Shown: positions 2,581 to 26,361 of the stretch, in pieces
How positions within the stretch are numbered: the stretch's first letter is position 1
Layout of the letters: each line of letters begins with the position of its first letter
Assembly: GCA_027013145.1 (NCBI GenBank)
Contig: JALUXX010000060.1
Location: forward strand, 1 to 64,000
Reading direction: 5' to 3'
Length of the DNA: 64,000 nt
Source of the DNA: Gammaproteobacteria bacterium
Lineage (GTDB): Bacteria; Pseudomonadota; Gammaproteobacteria; 21-64-14
Notes under the pieces: model-generated
Seen by the model: only the letters and a program-made list of their open reading frames with translations
What the model was told of the DNA's origin: nothing
Database searches by the model: none
Made by a program: the position numbers and the translations under genes

Positions 2581-4608
<2,028 letters not shown>

Positions 4609-17293: not shown

Positions 17294-17662
17294 ATGAGAG
17301 GGATCCGAGCGGAAGGGAAGGCGGCCGGGGACCGGAGACCGCCGGCCATGGGAGGCATGGTTTCCCCGGCCGGGATCGTCTCGCTGCTGTTCGGCGTCAT
17401 CGAGCTGCTGCTCGGGGCCCGCATCGTCCTGCGCCTCCTGGATGCAAACCCCGCCAACCAGGTGGTCGCCCTCGTCAACGCCTGGTCGCAGCCGTTCCGC
17501 GCCCCGTTCGTCGGCATGTTTCCGGTGCCCGAGGCCTATATCGGCGGCGTCCACGCCGTGTTCGAGGTCAACACCTTCATCGCGCTGCTCGCCTACGCCA
17601 TCGTTGGCGGGATCCTCGTCGCGTTCCTGCCGGGCGGACGCGGCGGGGACGGGCGGGACTAA
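17294..17662 (+). CDS. YggT-family membrane protein
   Basis: A 122-residue inner-membrane protein with two strongly hydrophobic segments (GIVSLLFGVIELLLGARIVL and FIALLAYAIVGGILVAFL) separated by a loop with the YggT signature VNAWSQPFRAPFVGMFP. Only one YggT unit is present. ATG 17294 is preceded by GGGGGAG; another ATG at 17348 is possible. YggT proteins are linked to membrane/osmotic homeostasis and division in some bacteria, but the molecular role is unknown. It faces the tusA gene convergently. Confidence 0.7.
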   Translation: MRGIRAEGKAAGDRRPPAMGGMVSPAGIVSLLFGVIELLLGARIVLRLLDANPANQVVALVNAWSQPFRAPFVGMFPVPEAYIGGVHAVFEVNTFIALLAYAIVGGILVAFLPGGRGGDGRD

Positions 17663-17725
17663 GCGGGTGCCGCGGCGGCGCCGCGGCGAGTCCAAACAGT
17701 GCGTGCCGGGGCCTTCGGCGAACCG

Positions 17726-17962
17726 TCAGACGCGCTGCACGTAGTAACGCAGGACTCCGCTGTCTTCGGTCATCCCGAGCAGTCGGTTGCCGGTGCGGCT
17801 GCACCAGGACGGGATGTCGGTGCGGGTGCCGGGATCGGTCGCCACGATCTCGAGGACCTGTCCGGGTAAGAGGGCCTTGATGGCCCGGTTGGTCTCGACC
17901 ATCGGCATGGGGCAGCACTTCCCCGTGGTGTCCAGCGTCTCATTGACGTTCGGTCGGTTCAT
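17726..17962 (-). CDS. tusA: TusA-family sulfur carrier protein
   Basis: A 78-residue TusA/SirA fold protein. The motif LDTTGKCCPMPMVETNRAI carries the persulfide-accepting CPxP cysteine, here preceded by a second Cys. VLEIVATDPGTRTDIPSWC is the usual following strand-helix. TusA accepts sulfane sulfur from a cysteine desulfurase and passes it to tRNA thiolation, Moco sulfuration or dissimilatory sulfur oxidation. It lies 126 bases downstream of a DsrE-like gene, the typical tusA-dsrE pairing of sulfur oxidisers, and 5 kb from a gene containing a cysteine desulfurase domain. Confidence 0.92.
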   Translation of the reverse strand: MNRPNVNETLDTTGKCCPMPMVETNRAIKALLPGQVLEIVATDPGTRTDIPSWCSRTGNRLLGMTEDSGVLRYYVQRV

Positions 17963-18088
17963 GGCGCTTGTGTCTCCTCCTCACAGGTTGCCGGATGACC
18001 GGCGCACCGGAGCGTCCGGAGCCGAGGCGACCGGATGCCCCCGGGGGCGGCCGCGGTGTCACCGCGCGTGGACCATTCGGGCCGCGGG

Positions 18089-18505
18089 TCAAAAGTACTG
18101 ACAGTGGTCCGCGGTGGCGGCCTTCTCGTTCAGGAACCAGGCGGCCCCCACGATCCCTTCGGCCTCCGGCAGGATATTTCCGTCATCGACGCCGAAGATG
18201 TTGGCGGCCAGGCTGCAGGCGTAGCAGTGCACCTTGCCGGTCTCGTGCAGCGCCGCGAGCAGGGTACGCACGTCGTTGGGCAGCCCTGCGGCCGCCACCC
18301 GTTCGCGCACCCAGTGATCGGCATCGGCATGCGCGCCCTCGACGCGCAAGGCCCTCGCCCCGTCCTCGGTGAGCGCGCGCACCGCCCAGTTCACGAACAG
18401 CATGTCGACCTCGGTGCCTTCCGCGGCGCTCAGGTAGGCGAAGGCGAGCGGTGTGAGGATCTTGTCGTAGGCGTCCTCACGAACCACGATGGCCAGGCGC
18501 TTCAT
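18089..18505 (-). CDS. DsrE/DsrF-like sulfurtransferase family protein
   Basis: A 138-residue DsrE-fold protein: MKRLAIVVREDAYDKILTPL, a central AYLSAAEGTEVDMLFVNWAV, and VHCYACSLAANIFGVDD carrying a CxxC pair that is the likely persulfide site. Such proteins shuttle sulfur with TusA. The second of two consecutive ATGs (18505) sits six bases after AGGAGG and is preferred; the first (18508) is only three bases away. A perfect palindrome matching the one at the upstream tetR gene lies just ahead, so it is probably TetR-repressed. Confidence 0.88.
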   Translation of the reverse strand: MKRLAIVVREDAYDKILTPLAFAYLSAAEGTEVDMLFVNWAVRALTEDGARALRVEGAHADADHWVRERVAAAGLPNDVRTLLAALHETGKVHCYACSLAANIFGVDDGNILPEAEGIVGAAWFLNEKAATADHCQYF

Positions 18506-18517
18506 CATCCACCTCCT

Positions 18518-18539
18518 GTAGAACGAACATTCGTTCTAC
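18518..18539. promoter_or_regulatory. TetR-type operator ahead of dsrE
   Basis: A perfect inverted repeat GTAGAACGAA-CA-TTCGTTCTAC, with 10-bp arms and a two-base centre. It lies immediately upstream of the dsrE ribosome site. The left arm and most of the right arm recur at the tetR promoter (19191-19212), so one dimeric repressor should bind both. Confidence 0.8.
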
Positions 18540-18580
18540 TGCATGCCAAAAAAACCCGTGCCGGTGGGGACCAAGCCCCC

Positions 18581-19180
18581 TCAAACCGCCACGGCCCGCC
18601 AACTGCATTCCCACACCGCCTCGAGCTGTGCGGGCAGCGGCTCGCGCAGCACCCCGTCGAGGCGCGCCGTGATCAGGCGCATCGCCCCGCCGAAAAGGCA
18701 GGTCGATGCGATCATCGGATCCATCGATCGGATCTCCCCACGCTCCATCCCCTCGCGCACCATCTCGCGCATCATCGCGAACGGCTTCGACGAACACACG
18801 GGTGTTGCGGAGGGTAGAAACTCCCGGTGCTTGGCGTAGAGCATGAATTCCATCGCTTCCGGCTGCTCCTCGGTGATCCGGAAGAGCTGCACCATCAGGG
18901 TCCGGCAGCGGTCCCGGGCGGTCGTGTGGACCGCACGGATCTGCTCGATGCGCCCGACCATCCGCGCCAGCAGATCGGCATAGAGGGCGTGGGCGATGTC
19001 CTCCTTGTCCTGGAAGTGGTGGTAGATCGAGCCGATGCTCACGCCGGCGTGGCGGGCGATATCGTGCACGGAGGTATTGAAGTAGCCGTGCCGGGTAAAG
19101 AGGCGCAGCGCGCTCGCCAGCACGCGCTCGCGGGGAGCGGCGGCGTCCCGCTTGCGGCGGGTTGCTGGAGATCGGCCCAT
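18581..19180 (-). CDS. TetR/AcrR-family transcriptional repressor
   Basis: A 199-residue one-component regulator. The N-terminal DNA-binding domain ERVLASALRLFTRHGYFNTS, then VHDIARHAGVSIGSIYHHFQ, is the classic TetR helix-turn-helix. The C-terminal ligand-binding domain contains one Cys-Ser pair (VCSSKP) and another Cys (STCLFGG), which could sense thiols or reactive sulfur; that is inference. The start ATG 19180 has no Shine-Dalgarno and lies only eight bases past the predicted -10, implying a leaderless mRNA. It should repress itself and the downstream dsrE-tusA through the matching palindromes. Confidence 0.92.
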   Translation of the reverse strand: MGRSPATRRKRDAAAPRERVLASALRLFTRHGYFNTSVHDIARHAGVSIGSIYHHFQDKEDIAHALYADLLARMVGRIEQIRAVHTTARDRCRTLMVQLFRITEEQPEAMEFMLYAKHREFLPSATPVCSSKPFAMMREMVREGMERGEIRSMDPMIASTCLFGGAMRLITARLDGVLREPLPAQLEAVWECSWRAVAV

Positions 19181-19187
19181 AGAAAAA

Positions 19188-19216
19188 ATGGTAGAACGAA
19201 CGTTCGTTTTTGTCAA
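19188..19216 (-). promoter_or_regulatory. tetR promoter with overlapping operator
   Basis: On the minus strand, TTGACA (19216-19211) is followed after 17 bases by TACCAT (19193-19188). An inverted repeat GTAGAACGAA-CG-TTCGTTTTTG (19191-19212) fills the spacer. Its left arm is identical to the dsrE operator. This placement means repressor binding would block RNA polymerase. Confidence 0.75.
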
Positions 19217-19429
19217 CTGTGCACCCAGCCCGTGGGTGGCGTCGCGGGGCGACGCATCGGCGGGCGGAGGTGCGACCGATGCCTTTCCCTTGACGTGTGT
19301 GCAACAGACAGGTTGTAGCGTCATGTCGAACCCTTGCGGTCGAGGGGTACGGAAGGCGTCCCGGCTTCGGCATCCTGGGACTGTCTCGCCTGGACGCCGC
19401 GAATCGGGCCGAAAAAGGAGCGGGAGTCC

Positions 19430-19897
19430 ATGGCCATCCCCCGTGCGAGCGGTCATCGCCAGCGAATTGCGGATGCGCGTGCCAGGACTGCGGGAAAGGG
19501 ATTCGCGGAATGCCCGCGCCGGCCGGCGCGGGGTCATGTTGTGCGGGCCGGTCTGCCGGTTCTGTTGGCCGCCTTGTCGTGGACGTCGATCTTCTGGTCC
19601 GGCGGCGCGCAGGGCGGATCGACCGGCGACGGGGATTCGGGGGAGCGGCTCTATCTGCGCAACTGCGCGGTCTGCCATGGCCCGGAGGGTGAAGGCGCCA
19701 TGCCGGGGGTGCCGGACCTGACCGCGCGTCCGGGGCCCCTGGACCGGCCCGACGACACCCTGGTGCGGCGGGTAAGGGAAGGGATCCGGGCTCCGGATGG
19801 TTCGGTCCTGATGCCGGCGGGCGGCGGCAATGCGTCGCTCACTGCGGCCCAGGTGCGGGCGATTCTCGGTTTCATGCGGCGCAGCGTGCGCAAATGA
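19430..19897 (+). CDS. Monoheme cytochrome c
   Basis: A 155-residue c-type cytochrome. The heme-binding motif CAVCH follows GERLYLRN near residue 80, and the distal methionine is probably in VLMPAGGG. The N-terminus has about 35 basic residues before a hydrophobic stretch (AGLPVLLAALSWTSIFW), which would serve as a signal or membrane anchor. ATG 19430 follows AAAGGAG by about nine bases. It precedes a beta-propeller gene by 34 bases, suggesting a shared transcript and a periplasmic electron-transfer role with unknown partner. Confidence 0.85.
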   Translation: MAIPRASGHRQRIADARARTAGKGFAECPRRPARGHVVRAGLPVLLAALSWTSIFWSGGAQGGSTGDGDSGERLYLRNCAVCHGPEGEGAMPGVPDLTARPGPLDRPDDTLVRRVREGIRAPDGSVLMPAGGGNASLTAAQVRAILGFMRRSVRK

Positions 19898-22938: not shown

Positions 22939-25900
22939 GTGGCAGCGAGCGGCGGCGCGACGGATGGGGCGTGGAGAAAGGGAGTTTGCGGAGTATGCCC
23001 CGCGGGTTGCTGGGTGGAGGTTCGCATCGAGGGCGGCAGGCTCACGGACATCCGGGCGGATCCGGACCATCCCCTGGGGGCGCTGTGCCGGCGCGGGCGG
23101 CACGCCCCCGAGATCGTCTACGCGGAGCATCGCCTGCGCCATCCGTTGCGACGCGCCGCTGGTCCGAAAGGCGCGTTCGACTTCCAGACCACCACCTGGG
23201 ACGCCGCCTACGACGAGATCGCGCAGCGCCTGGAGCGGATCAAAGCGGAGTCGGGCCCGGAGGCGGTGGCCGTCTACACCGGGCGGGGGGCGTTCGAACT
23301 GTCCCTCTGTGATCTGTTCCAGCCTCGTGGCGTGGCGGTATCGTCGGCGTCGAACGTCCTCTTTCCATTCGGTTCCCCCAACACGATGGGGGTTGGTGCG
23401 CTGTGCTACGTCTCGTTCGCGATGATCGCCCCGCACGTCACGATGGGCAGGATGCTCGTCGACATGTACGCGGACATGGAGAATGCGGAGCTGCTGGTCG
23501 TGTGGGGCGCCAATCCGGCGACGGACTCACCACCGATCGACATGCGCCGCCTGGAGGCGGCGGCGGGGCGAGGGGCGCAGGTGGTCGTCATCGATCCCCG
23601 CAGAACCGAAACTGTGGAGCGATGCGGGGCCGAGTGGATTCCGATCCGGCCCGGCACCGACGGTGCGTTGGCGCTGTCGATGATCGGAGTGTTGATCGAC
23701 GAAGGGATTCTGGACGAGGAGTTCGCGGAGAACTGGTGCCGGGGCTTCGACGAACTGGCGCAGTATGTGCAGCACTTTCCGCCCGAGGCCGCGGAACGGA
23801 TCACCGGGGTACCGGCGCGGACGGTGCGCACCCTGGCGCGACGCATCGGCACGGCGCGCGGCGCCTGCCCCGTCATGTACACGGGTCTCGAGTATTCCGA
23901 CAGCGGTGTTCAGGCGATCCGCGCGGTGCTGACGCTGTTCGCGCTGGCCGGCCAACTCGACGTCCCCGGCGGCATCGGGTTGGCCATGCGCGGGTCGCAC
24001 TTCCCCATCAACCGATCGTGCAATCAGCCGAACCCGGATCTGGCGCGGGCGGCGGGGCGCGGACGCTTTCCGCTCTACAGCCATTACCGCGGCGAGTCGC
24101 ACGCCACGGCGCTGGTCGATGCGGTGCTGAAGGGGCGCCCGTATCCGATCCGGGCGCTGATCATTCACGGGGCATCGCTGCTGACATCGTGGCCGCAGCC
24201 CGCCGTTTGGCGCCGGGTGCTGGAGAAGCTCGACTTCGTGGTCTGCATCGATCGGCAGCGGACCGCGGATGCCGCATTCGCCGATCTCGTGCTCCCCGCT
24301 ACCACGATGTTCGAGATCGATTCGTACATGACGTACGGGCCGATCTTCCGGCTGCGGGAGAAGCTGATCGAGCCGCTGGGCGAGGCGCGCAACGACTATC
24401 GCATCATGGCGCAACTCGCCGCCCGGCTCGGCTACGGGGATCTCTACCCGCAGACGGAGGAGGAGATGCTCCGGTTCGTGCTGCAGGGATCCGGATTCAC
24501 CCTCGAGGAGGTACGTGCGGCGGGTGGAATCGTGCGCATACCGGCGCCGTTCACGGAGTATCGTAAGTGGCAGAAGGGCGGGCTGCGGGCCGACGGCAGA
24601 GCGGGATTCGAGACGCCCAGCGGAAAGTTCGAAATCCGCTCGTCGCTGCTCGAAGAATACGGCTACGAGCCGCTGCCCCGGTACACGGAGCCCCGCGAGG
24701 GGCCGCTGGCCGATCCCGCGCTCGCCCGTGAATTCTCCTTGGTCTTCAATTCCGGCGCGCGGCCGGACACGGATTTCCGCTCCCAGCATCACGGTATTCC
24801 CGGGCTGGTCCGGGATCGGCCCGAGCCGATGGTCGAGATCAATGAACGGGACGCGGCCGCGCGTGGGATCCGCGACGGTGACCTCGTGGAGGTGCGCACC
24901 CCCAGAGGGGCGGTGCCGTTCAGGGCGCGGGTGTCCAGCGCTATCGTAGCGGGTGCGGTCGATTGCGACATGGGCGGCGGAACCCCCGTGGGGCCGGCGG
25001 CGTGGCGGGACTGGAACGTGAATGCCCTCACCGACCTGGACCACTACGATCCGGTTTCCGGGTTTCCGGTGTACAAGGCGCTGCTGTGCGAGGTCGCGAG
25101 GCTCGCCGGGGGTGTCCCGTCCGGGGCGGAGCCGCGGCGCGGGGTGCTGCGTGAGCGGCGGCGGAGGCACGCCGCCGCGGGGGCGACCGGGGCTCGGCGG
25201 CGCCGCACCGTGTACCTGGACAACAACGCGACCACGCCGGTCGATCCGCTCGTACGCGAGGCGATGCTCCCCTGGCTGGAAGCGGGCTTCGGGAATCCCT
25301 CGAGCCTCCACCGCCGGGGCCGGGAGGCCTACGCGGCGGTGGAGGCGGCGCGGCGCAGCGTGGCGCGCCTGATCAACGCGCACCCGCGGCGGGTGATCTT
25401 TACCAGCGGCGGCTCCGAGTCGAACAACTTGGCGATCAAGGGCGCGGTCTTCGCGCGGTCGGGGCGCGGCGGACACTTGGTGACGACGCATGTCGAGCAC
25501 CCCTCGGTGCTCGGTGCCTTCGCCTTCCTGGAGGGGCTCGGCTATACGGTTACCCGCCTGCCGGTCGACCGTCTGGGGCGGGTCGACCCCGGGGACCTGG
25601 AGGCGGTGCTGCGCGACGATACGATCCTCGTGTCGATCATGACCGCCAACAACGAGGTCGGTACGATTCAGCCCGTTCGCGAGTGCTGCCGGGTGGTGCA
25701 TCGCAAGGGAATCCTGTTCCACACCGACGCGGTCCAGGCGGTCGGCAAGATCCCGGTGGATGTGGCGGATCTCGAGGTCGACCTGTTCAGCCTCTCGGCG
25801 CACAAATTCCACGGCCCCAAGGGAATCGGCGCCCTTTACGTACGCAAGGGGGTCGCTCTGTCTCCGCTGGTGCACGGCGGGGGCCAGGAAGGCGGTCTGC

Positions 25901-26361
25901 GCGGCGGTACGCAGAACGTCGCCGGCATCGCCGGCCTCGGAGCCGCCGCCGAACAGGCCGCCGTGACGCTGGGGGAGTTCGAACGGGTGCGCGGGCTGCG
26001 GGACCGACTCGAGGTGCAGATCCGCGGGCTCGTGCGCGGTGCGGTCCTGAACGGACATCCCGGGGAGCGCCTGCCCAACACCGTGAACATGATCCTGCCG
26101 GGCCTGCGGGGGGAGTCGCTGGTGGTCGCGCTCGATCAGAACGGTGTGGCGGTCTCGTCGGGTTCGGCCTGCAAATCGGGATCGCCGGATCCGACCCATG
26201 TGCTGCTCGCCATGGGGGTGGGGGTGCAGGATGCGCACTGCTCCCTGCGTTTTTCGTTGTCCCGGGAGACGACGGAGCAGGACGTCGAGGCGGCGGTGGC
26301 GGCGTTGCGCAGGGTGCTGGCGCAGGCGCAGGCCACGGTGAGGTTCCTGCCGTGCAAGTGA
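22939..26361 (+). CDS. Molybdopterin oxidoreductase-cysteine desulfurase fusion protein
   Basis: A single 1140-residue frame encodes two enzymes. Residues about 14-740 form a DMSO-reductase-superfamily subunit. An N-terminal [4Fe-4S] site is C17-x2-C20-x3-C24-x25-C50. LLVVWGANPATDSPP lies in the cofactor domain, and C156 in VGALCYVSF is a candidate Mo ligand. The C-terminal MGD-binding domain contains ARGIRDGDLVEVRTPRG. There is no Tat signal, so it is cytoplasmic. After a basic linker, residues about 758-1140 form a complete group I cysteine desulfurase (NifS/IscS type): VYLDNNATTPVD, PLP lysine K956 in SAHKFHGPKG, catalytic C1078 in SSGSACKSGS. GTG 22939 follows GGAG. IscS-derived sulfur is known to activate formate-dehydrogenase Mo via FdhD, which makes a self-sulfurating enzyme plausible. 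Substrate is unknown. Confidence 0.9.
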   Translation: MAASGGATDGAWRKGVCGVCPAGCWVEVRIEGGRLTDIRADPDHPLGALCRRGRHAPEIVYAEHRLRHPLRRAAGPKGAFDFQTTTWDAAYDEIAQRLERIKAESGPEAVAVYTGRGAFELSLCDLFQPRGVAVSSASNVLFPFGSPNTMGVGALCYVSFAMIAPHVTMGRMLVDMYADMENAELLVVWGANPATDSPPIDMRRLEAAAGRGAQVVVIDPRRTETVERCGAEWIPIRPGTDGALALSMIGVLIDEGILDEEFAENWCRGFDELAQYVQHFPPEAAERITGVPARTVRTLARRIGTARGACPVMYTGLEYSDSGVQAIRAVLTLFALAGQLDVPGGIGLAMRGSHFPINRSCNQPNPDLARAAGRGRFPLYSHYRGESHATALVDAVLKGRPYPIRALIIHGASLLTSWPQPAVWRRVLEKLDFVVCIDRQRTADAAFADLVLPATTMFEIDSYMTYGPIFRLREKLIEPLGEARNDYRIMAQLAARLGYGDLYPQTEEEMLRFVLQGSGFTLEEVRAAGGIVRIPAPFTEYRKWQKGGLRADGRAGFETPSGKFEIRSSLLEEYGYEPLPRYTEPREGPLADPALAREFSLVFNSGARPDTDFRSQHHGIPGLVRDRPEPMVEINERDAAARGIRDGDLVEVRTPRGAVPFRARVSSAIVAGAVDCDMGGGTPVGPAAWRDWNVNALTDLDHYDPVSGFPVYKALLCEVARLAGGVPSGAEPRRGVLRERRRRHAAAGATGARRRRTVYLDNNATTPVDPLVREAMLPWLEAGFGNPSSLHRRGREAYAAVEAARRSVARLINAHPRRVIFTSGGSESNNLAIKGAVFARSGRGGHLVTTHVEHPSVLGAFAFLEGLGYTVTRLPVDRLGRVDPGDLEAVLRDDTILVSIMTANNEVGTIQPVRECCRVVHRKGILFHTDAVQAVGKIPVDVADLEVDLFSLSAHKFHGPKGIGALYVRKGVALSPLVHGGGQEGGLRGGTQNVAGIAGLGAAAEQAAVTLGEFERVRGLRDRLEVQIRGLVRGAVLNGHPGERLPNTVNMILPGLRGESLVVALDQNGVAVSSGSACKSGSPDPTHVLLAMGVGVQDAHCSLRFSLSRETTEQDVEAAVAALRRVLAQAQATVRFLPCK

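Follow-up and report, generated by a model that had tools for sequence, protein, structure and literature searches.

The locus analysed here lies in a 64,000-nucleotide stretch of DNA, referred to as the window, from a gammaproteobacterial genome of 3.28 Mb (67 contigs, 99.88% complete). Read along the minus strand, it contains the following features, the operators being putative:

19188 to 19216, minus strand: predicted tetR promoter, TTGACA-17-TACCAT, with 7 bases from the −10 element to the ATG.
19191 to 19212: operator O1, with its symmetric core inside the −35/−10 spacer and at the same position in relatives.
18581 to 19180, minus strand: tetR, encoding a 199-aa TetR-family repressor, with the ATG of the open reading frame at 19180.
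18556 to 18594, minus strand: terminator-like hairpin (−26.0 kcal/mol) overlapping the 3' end of tetR; its coordinates were counted by hand from the folded segment.
18548 to 18554, minus strand: T-run (7 T), with a gap of 9 bases to the TAGAAC of O2.
18518 to 18539: operator O2, abutting the Shine-Dalgarno sequence of dsrE and with a counterpart in 16 other loci.
18089 to 18508, minus strand: dsrE, encoding a 139-aa DsrE-family protein.
17726 to 17962, minus strand: tusA, encoding a 78-aa protein.

Based on its Pfam helix-turn-helix domain (TetR_N, 62.1 bits with a cut-off of 24; TetR_C_10, 32.8 bits, also over cut-off) and the predicted fold of an AF2 model (pLDDT 85.5) that matches TetR structures, the window TetR is a TetR-family repressor. 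It is not AcuR, BetI, FadR, or another named NCBIfam equivalog, given that none of the 24 families with a match at E ≤ 0.001 reached its cut-off. The DsrE-family protein matches PF13686 and PF02635 over cut-off (DsrE, 26.8 bits; DrsE_2, 38.8 bits) and PDB entry 2qs7 (E 3.9e-7), while TusA matches PF01206 (80.2 bits, over cut-off). The two proteins score below more specific models, with TusA at 57.5 bits compared with the cut-off of 78 for the TusA equivalog NF001423 and DsrE at 21.5 bits compared with the cut-off of 210 for DsrE2 (NF047629). In the part of PMC4175335 covered here, DsrE3A proteins are defined by Cys-X7-Cys starting at the active-site Cys; the corresponding stretch in the window, ACSLAANIFGV, has Gly at the second place (the active-site Cys was placed by eye from the 2qs7 alignment). 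An Rfam search of the window at the gathering threshold yielded two tRNAs only. Genes for cytochrome c and beta-propeller proteins lie upstream and are not linked to the circuit described below. Elsewhere in the window (22939-26361, plus strand), a single frame of 1140 codons fuses a molybdopterin oxidoreductase (residues 12-714) to a NifS-like cysteine desulfurase (758-1118), and this fused frame had no match within the 14-kb stretch of locus L040.

O2 has the sequence GTAGAACGAACATTCGTTCTAC (18518-18539), i.e., GTAGAACGAA-CA-TTCGTTCTAC. The preliminary description of this DNA had called it a perfect 22-bp palindrome; both 10-base arms are indeed perfect inverted repeats, but the central CA is not self-complementary, leaving 20 of 22 positions symmetric. 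The near copy reported at the tetR promoter is present as O1 (19191-19212), which has 3 mismatches in the 20 specified positions and whose symmetric core fills the spacer between TTGACA and TACCAT. Two matches to the palindrome were observed in the window, compared with 0.00 expected from 100 shuffles. A genome scan, as the preliminary description had proposed, located TAGAAYGAANNTTCRTTCTA within 2 mismatches only at O1 and O2 in the 3.28-Mb genome; likewise, with at most 1 mismatch, the 16-base core has no other occurrence in the genome, and one further copy with 2 mismatches lies on contig C4. Among 369 genomes of the class, TAGAAYGAANNTTCRTTCTA with at most 1 mismatch was found in 23, comprising 20 of the 35 genomes with a relative of the TetR versus 3 of the 334 without one (G056, G118, and G216; Fisher p about 1e-20, uncorrected for relatedness). 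Site and TetR counts were taken as one sample because the genome handles agree. The reversed pattern, used as a control, was found in 2 of the 369 genomes. Altogether, the shuffles, the genome scan, and the 369-genome scan rule out a chance origin of the palindromes. The 15 TetR genomes without a site at this threshold include the close relative G035, whose site has 2 mismatches, and in 3 of the 20 genomes with both, the site is not beside tetR (another contig in G155, about 5 kb away in G228, and about 1 kb away in G075). The two G155 sites (G155:C8:68-87 and 4224-4243) are A/T-rich operator variants of identical sequence, separated by 4.2 kb. When 2 mismatches were allowed, G000, G001, G020, and G125 had exactly two sites each, both at the tetR locus, and the reversed control matched in 1 of 14 near genomes. 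Thus, in this closest group, the regulon looks local.

At E ≤ 1e-25, 14 of 142 near genomes, including that of the window, encode a relative of the TetR. At E ≤ 1e-45, this holds for 35 of the 369 genomes that sample the class and, at E ≤ 1e-60, for 7/40, 3/20, 2/31, and 2/3 genomes of four orders. Close relatives are encoded by Bacterium BMS3Bbin13 (82% identity), Betaproteobacteria bacterium SCN1 (62%), and Thiobacillus thioparus DSM 505 (59%); that search returned 22 loci, and the remaining 19 are distant. T. thioparus has a form of the arrangement with one operator. In total, 38 loci were oriented by script and 30 TetRs were compared, leaving out eight distant ones (L047-L052, L113, and L115). 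The genes that follow more distant relatives encode metallo-beta-lactamase-fold proteins (L049 and L051) or, in L045, a thioredoxin-like protein, a hint that the regulators may form a larger group.

The pair TTGACA (19216-19211) and TACCAT (19193-19188), separated by 17 bases on the minus strand, is the only promoter-like pair between 17600 and 19500, with 0.1 expected, and lies where it had been placed originally. There are 7 bases between TACCAT and the ATG at 19180, such that the A is the eighth base after the −10 element, as previously noted. Of the 30 loci, 19, the window included, have O1 (≤2 core mismatches) immediately ahead of the tetR start; this count excludes L046, L105, and other variant O1 sites. 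In 15 of these 19 loci, TTGAC is present 17 bases ahead of the −10 element (absent in L102, L019, L020, and L114), and an in-frame tetR start follows the −10 element after 6-7 bases in 18 and after 5 bases in L114. The start-codon script prints the first ATG or GTG, and the in-frame starts of L042, L128, L129, and L019 (6 bases) were read by eye. Across the 19 loci, the best Shine-Dalgarno match before tetR is 4/6. The remaining 11 of the 30 loci lack O1 within 2 core mismatches; by eye, seven of them have a shorter or variant palindrome (L043, L046, L105, L109, L112, L132, and L133), and the other four have no trustworthy palindrome before tetR. We also scanned for sigma-70 promoters using a matrix of base frequencies (background 90% point, 6.1; 99% point, 9.2). 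On the tetR side of 18 O1 loci, the pair around O1 scored 8.3 to 12.7 in 15, the −10 element being directly behind O1 in 12 and shifted by 2 in 3, while the best pair is elsewhere in L102, L019, and L020. This conserved geometry, together with the mapped acuR precedent discussed below, backs the earlier suggestion of a leaderless tetR mRNA, which we now regard as a strong prediction.

Because the same arrangement is present in distantly related bacteria, it looks like a real control circuit, and we consider a two-operator TetR repressor circuit likely (probability about 0.8). The conservation of both sites together with the regulator supports the prediction that the same TetR exerts autorepression and controls dsrE-tusA, as the preliminary description had anticipated. 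We infer binding, repression, and signal as follows. TetR would bind as a dimer to its two sites, each a copy of TAGAACGAANNTTCGTTCTA. When bound to O1, in the −35/−10 spacer, it would shut off its own leaderless mRNA; when bound to O2, it would prevent transcription from entering dsrE-tusA. Release of TetR from the DNA would follow a signal connected with sulfur oxidation, for which the Cys129/His118 loop is the probable sensor.

A gene for a DsrE-family protein or TusA is beside tetR in 21 of 38 loci, eight of them distant, and a small Cys-rich gene alone in 3 more. Behind O2, dsrE followed by tusA is found in 13 of 17 loci; the small Cys-rich gene comes first in L043, L046, and L105, while L108 has another small gene followed by a gene for a secreted DsrE-like protein. 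In L041 (G020), dsrE has an in-frame stop after 82 codons, and the remaining protein is still conserved. The Cys-rich family (members at L043:7128-7373, L044:6653-6853, L019:4573-4803, and L020:4575-4793, among others) has five invariant Cys residues in seven sequences, and the members scanned had no Pfam or NCBIfam match. It was found in 9 of 338 genomes, in 7 of them beside the TetR gene (not in G236 and G250), and was absent from the window's genome at the threshold used. Among 19 genomes with the module that were tested, SoxB exceeded the cut-off in 18 and dsrA in 15; among six hand-picked genomes without the TetR, each was found in 1, in both cases G002. In the genome of the window itself, SoxB and two dsrA genes (G000:C53:18645-19856 and G000:C9:49656-50861) exceed their cut-offs, and the host is a sulfur-oxidizing bacterium.

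As to the signal, the preliminary description had suggested reactive sulfur. Across 30 TetRs, H118 and C129 are present in 30/30, E120 in 29/30, C92 in 24/30, and C192 in 20/30; thus, one Cys and one His are invariant in the ligand domain. In a set of 16 TetRs including six distant ones, C129 was seen by eye in 15, L052 being the exception. In the AF2 model, this part of the protein lies in the loop before the helix 132-146, with pLDDT block means of 71 and 66 over residues 111-130. The conservation of C129 and H118 is suggestive and compatible with a sulfur or thiol signal, and a thiol or metal signal for TetR is plausible. Alternatively, the circuit may operate as described with an inducer other than sulfane sulfur, e.g., a sulfur oxyanion, a metal held by H118, E120, and C129, or an unrelated hydrophobic ligand. 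We rate this as a serious possibility, albeit below even odds. It is favored by the nearest folds of the model, which are 2gen, 4me9, and 3pas and then Bacillus FadR, with one entry complexed with stearoyl-CoA, and by the single invariant Cys, given that a sulfur bridge forms between two conserved Cys residues in the Hyphomicrobium SoxR according to the part of PMC12423496 covered. However, the DsrE-family or TusA genes adjoining tetR in 21 of 38 loci speak against it, as do C92 and C192, which make a second Cys often available.

O2 with at most 1 core mismatch is present behind tetR in 17 loci, and in all 17 a hairpin and a T-run of 5-8 bases come before it. The T-run ends 9-13 bases before TAGAAC (mean 10.8), while the distance to the tetR stop ranges between 7 and 40; a Levene comparison of spacings leaves shared ancestry uncorrected. 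By comparison, 4.0% of random windows contained a T-run, and one of the 19 O1 sites had a T-run in the 45 bases preceding it. Of the 13 loci among the 30 that lack O2 at this threshold, 11 also have no T-run close to the tetR stop, and in the other two, L132 and L133, a T-run follows tetR. L112 has an O2 with 2 mismatches and no T-run. In a check of co-transcription, the next gene lies directly behind tetR in L044, L019, L020, and L107, while the hairpin and T-run intervene in the 17 loci. Some of the hairpins are weak (−5.9, −7.8, and −8.2 kcal/mol in L108, L131, and L043, respectively), and a strict consensus terminator scan of the 17600-19500 region returned 0 terminators at the hairpin at the tetR 3' end. 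Between the T-run and O2, a C is kept 7 bases before TAGAAC in 14 of the 17 loci.

On the dsrE side, the sigma-70 scan upstream of the Shine-Dalgarno sequence found no pair scoring more than 6.1, the background 90% point, in any of the 17 O2 loci, and an ordinary sigma-70 promoter at this position is rejected. In L046 and L105, a promoter-like pair (ATGACT-17-TATAAC and TATAGC) brackets O2 as in the tetR promoter; with the position left free, L108 and L104 also exceed 6.1. The reading of O2 as a control site of dsrE is supported by the conservation of O2 with TetR. The preliminary description overlooked the hairpin and T-run in 17/17 loci and the lack of a recognizable conventional dsrE promoter in most loci. 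These features suggest that O2 may not be a usual promoter operator and that it may stop read-through polymerases instead of covering a promoter.

Specifically, polymerases from the tetR promoter would read past the terminator into dsrE-tusA, and TetR on O2, 9-13 bases beyond the T-run, would block them. We lean toward this mechanism tentatively, giving it slightly less than an even chance, over a dedicated, unconventional dsrE promoter. Arguing against it are the tetR-like promoters around O2 in L046 and L105 and the scores above 6.1 in L108 and L104 with the position free; moreover, the window hairpin looks strong and would leave little read-through. Conversely, O2 could be the operator of a dedicated, unusual dsrE promoter, with the hairpin merely ending the tetR message, a reading that we consider quite possible although not probable. 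An example would be the pair formed by TTGGCA, where the T-run ends, and TTCGTT, which lies within O2; it implies a very short leader. The G after the T-run in 12 of 17 loci makes a TTG-like −35 element common. Such a promoter would also fit the C that 14 of 17 loci have at −7 relative to TAGAAC and the promoter-like pairs at or beyond O2 in L046, L105, L108, and L104 (4/17, position free). However, with a start upstream of the Shine-Dalgarno sequence, the best sigma-70 score is below 6.1 in 17/17 loci, and the TTG-based pair would put the start inside the Shine-Dalgarno sequence and has a −10 element without A at position 2.

A further reading is that O2, the hairpin, and the T-run form one regulated element, in which TetR would hold the polymerase at the T-run such that the message ends, and a reactive-sulfur signal would free TetR to allow read-on into the sulfur-carrier genes. 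We regard such a repressor-gated terminator as rather unlikely; intrinsic termination could also be impeded by a roadblock instead of being promoted. If true, one repressor would control initiation and elongation of one transcript via two copies of one site. Finally, it is very improbable that the O2 palindrome is an RNA hairpin in the dsrE leader instead of a protein site: its arms could pair directly before the Shine-Dalgarno sequence, but the same sequence is present at O1, which is untranscribed if tetR is leaderless, and a differing arm breaks a pair without compensation in 6 of 17 loci, and this candidate is rejected.

Judged from these comparisons, the arrangement is real and conserved; the predicted circuit is of a known kind (a self-repressing, leaderless TetR circuit) and unpublished within the open-access literature searched. 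There, we found no report of the regulator, no occurrence of the exact operator string, and no TetR-family repressor linked to persulfide or sulfane sulfur. In the parts of the open-access papers covered in which TetR occurs together with DsrE and TusA, it is a tetracycline-resistance marker, and the whole word TetR is absent from PMC12423496 and from the sulfur-oxidizer genome literature checked. The circuit would represent a compact regulon tied to DsrE/TusA genes in Sox/Dsr-bearing bacteria, whose targets can be listed by sequence because the operator consensus is strict, and would show that a leaderless repressor arrangement is also conserved in regulators other than AcuR. It also makes TetR a candidate for sensing of sulfur species through a conserved Cys and exposes a small Cys-rich protein family without a matching Pfam or NCBIfam model here. 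What interests us most is the part that the hairpin, T-run, and O2 play; because the spacing between T-run and operator is narrow, roadblock-coupled termination is testable.

Several known systems share parts of this arrangement. LacI, as well as CcpA and CodY, acts as a roadblock, i.e., the DNA-bound repressor downstream of a promoter halts the elongating polymerase, and read-through is low for weak promoters (PMC4132739, PMC10310618); the parts of these papers covered describe no coupling to an intrinsic terminator, and the roadblock at O2 is a hypothesis. The dsrE3A-dsrE2B-tusA cluster of Metallosphaera cuprina likewise encodes a DsrE-family protein together with TusA; however, it is archaeal, adjoins Hdr genes, and encodes a DsrE3A with the Cys-X7-Cys that is missing from the window DsrE (PMC4175335, in the part covered). 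The sulfane-sulfur repressors SoxR and sHdrR of Hyphomicrobium denitrificans repress sulfur-oxidation genes, as predicted for the window TetR, but they are of the ArsR and not the TetR type, and SoxR uses two cysteines versus the one invariant Cys in the window TetR family (PMC12423496, in the part covered). Leaderless repressor messages are also described for Tn1721 tetR and lambda cI, which control other genes (PMC3017554, in the part covered).

The arrangement also resembles the acuR-acuI-dddL operon of Rhodobacter sphaeroides as described in the part of PMC3017554 covered. The acuR message begins at the A of the ATG, as determined by RACE; acuR is a promoter-proximal, self-repressing TetR gene, as predicted for the window tetR; its inverted repeat overlaps its promoter (TTGATT/TATTAT) in a similar layout; and it has no convincing Shine-Dalgarno sequence and is translated less than the genes downstream. 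AcuR differs in its operator (TAATAGAC-N6-GTCTATTA) and its inducer, acrylate; in addition, no second operator is described in the text covered, and the intergenic fragments of the operon are without promoter activity. The window TetR scores 34.9 bits with the AcuR model NF051457, compared with a cut-off of 247. While not a member of the AcuR family, the window TetR would work like AcuR.
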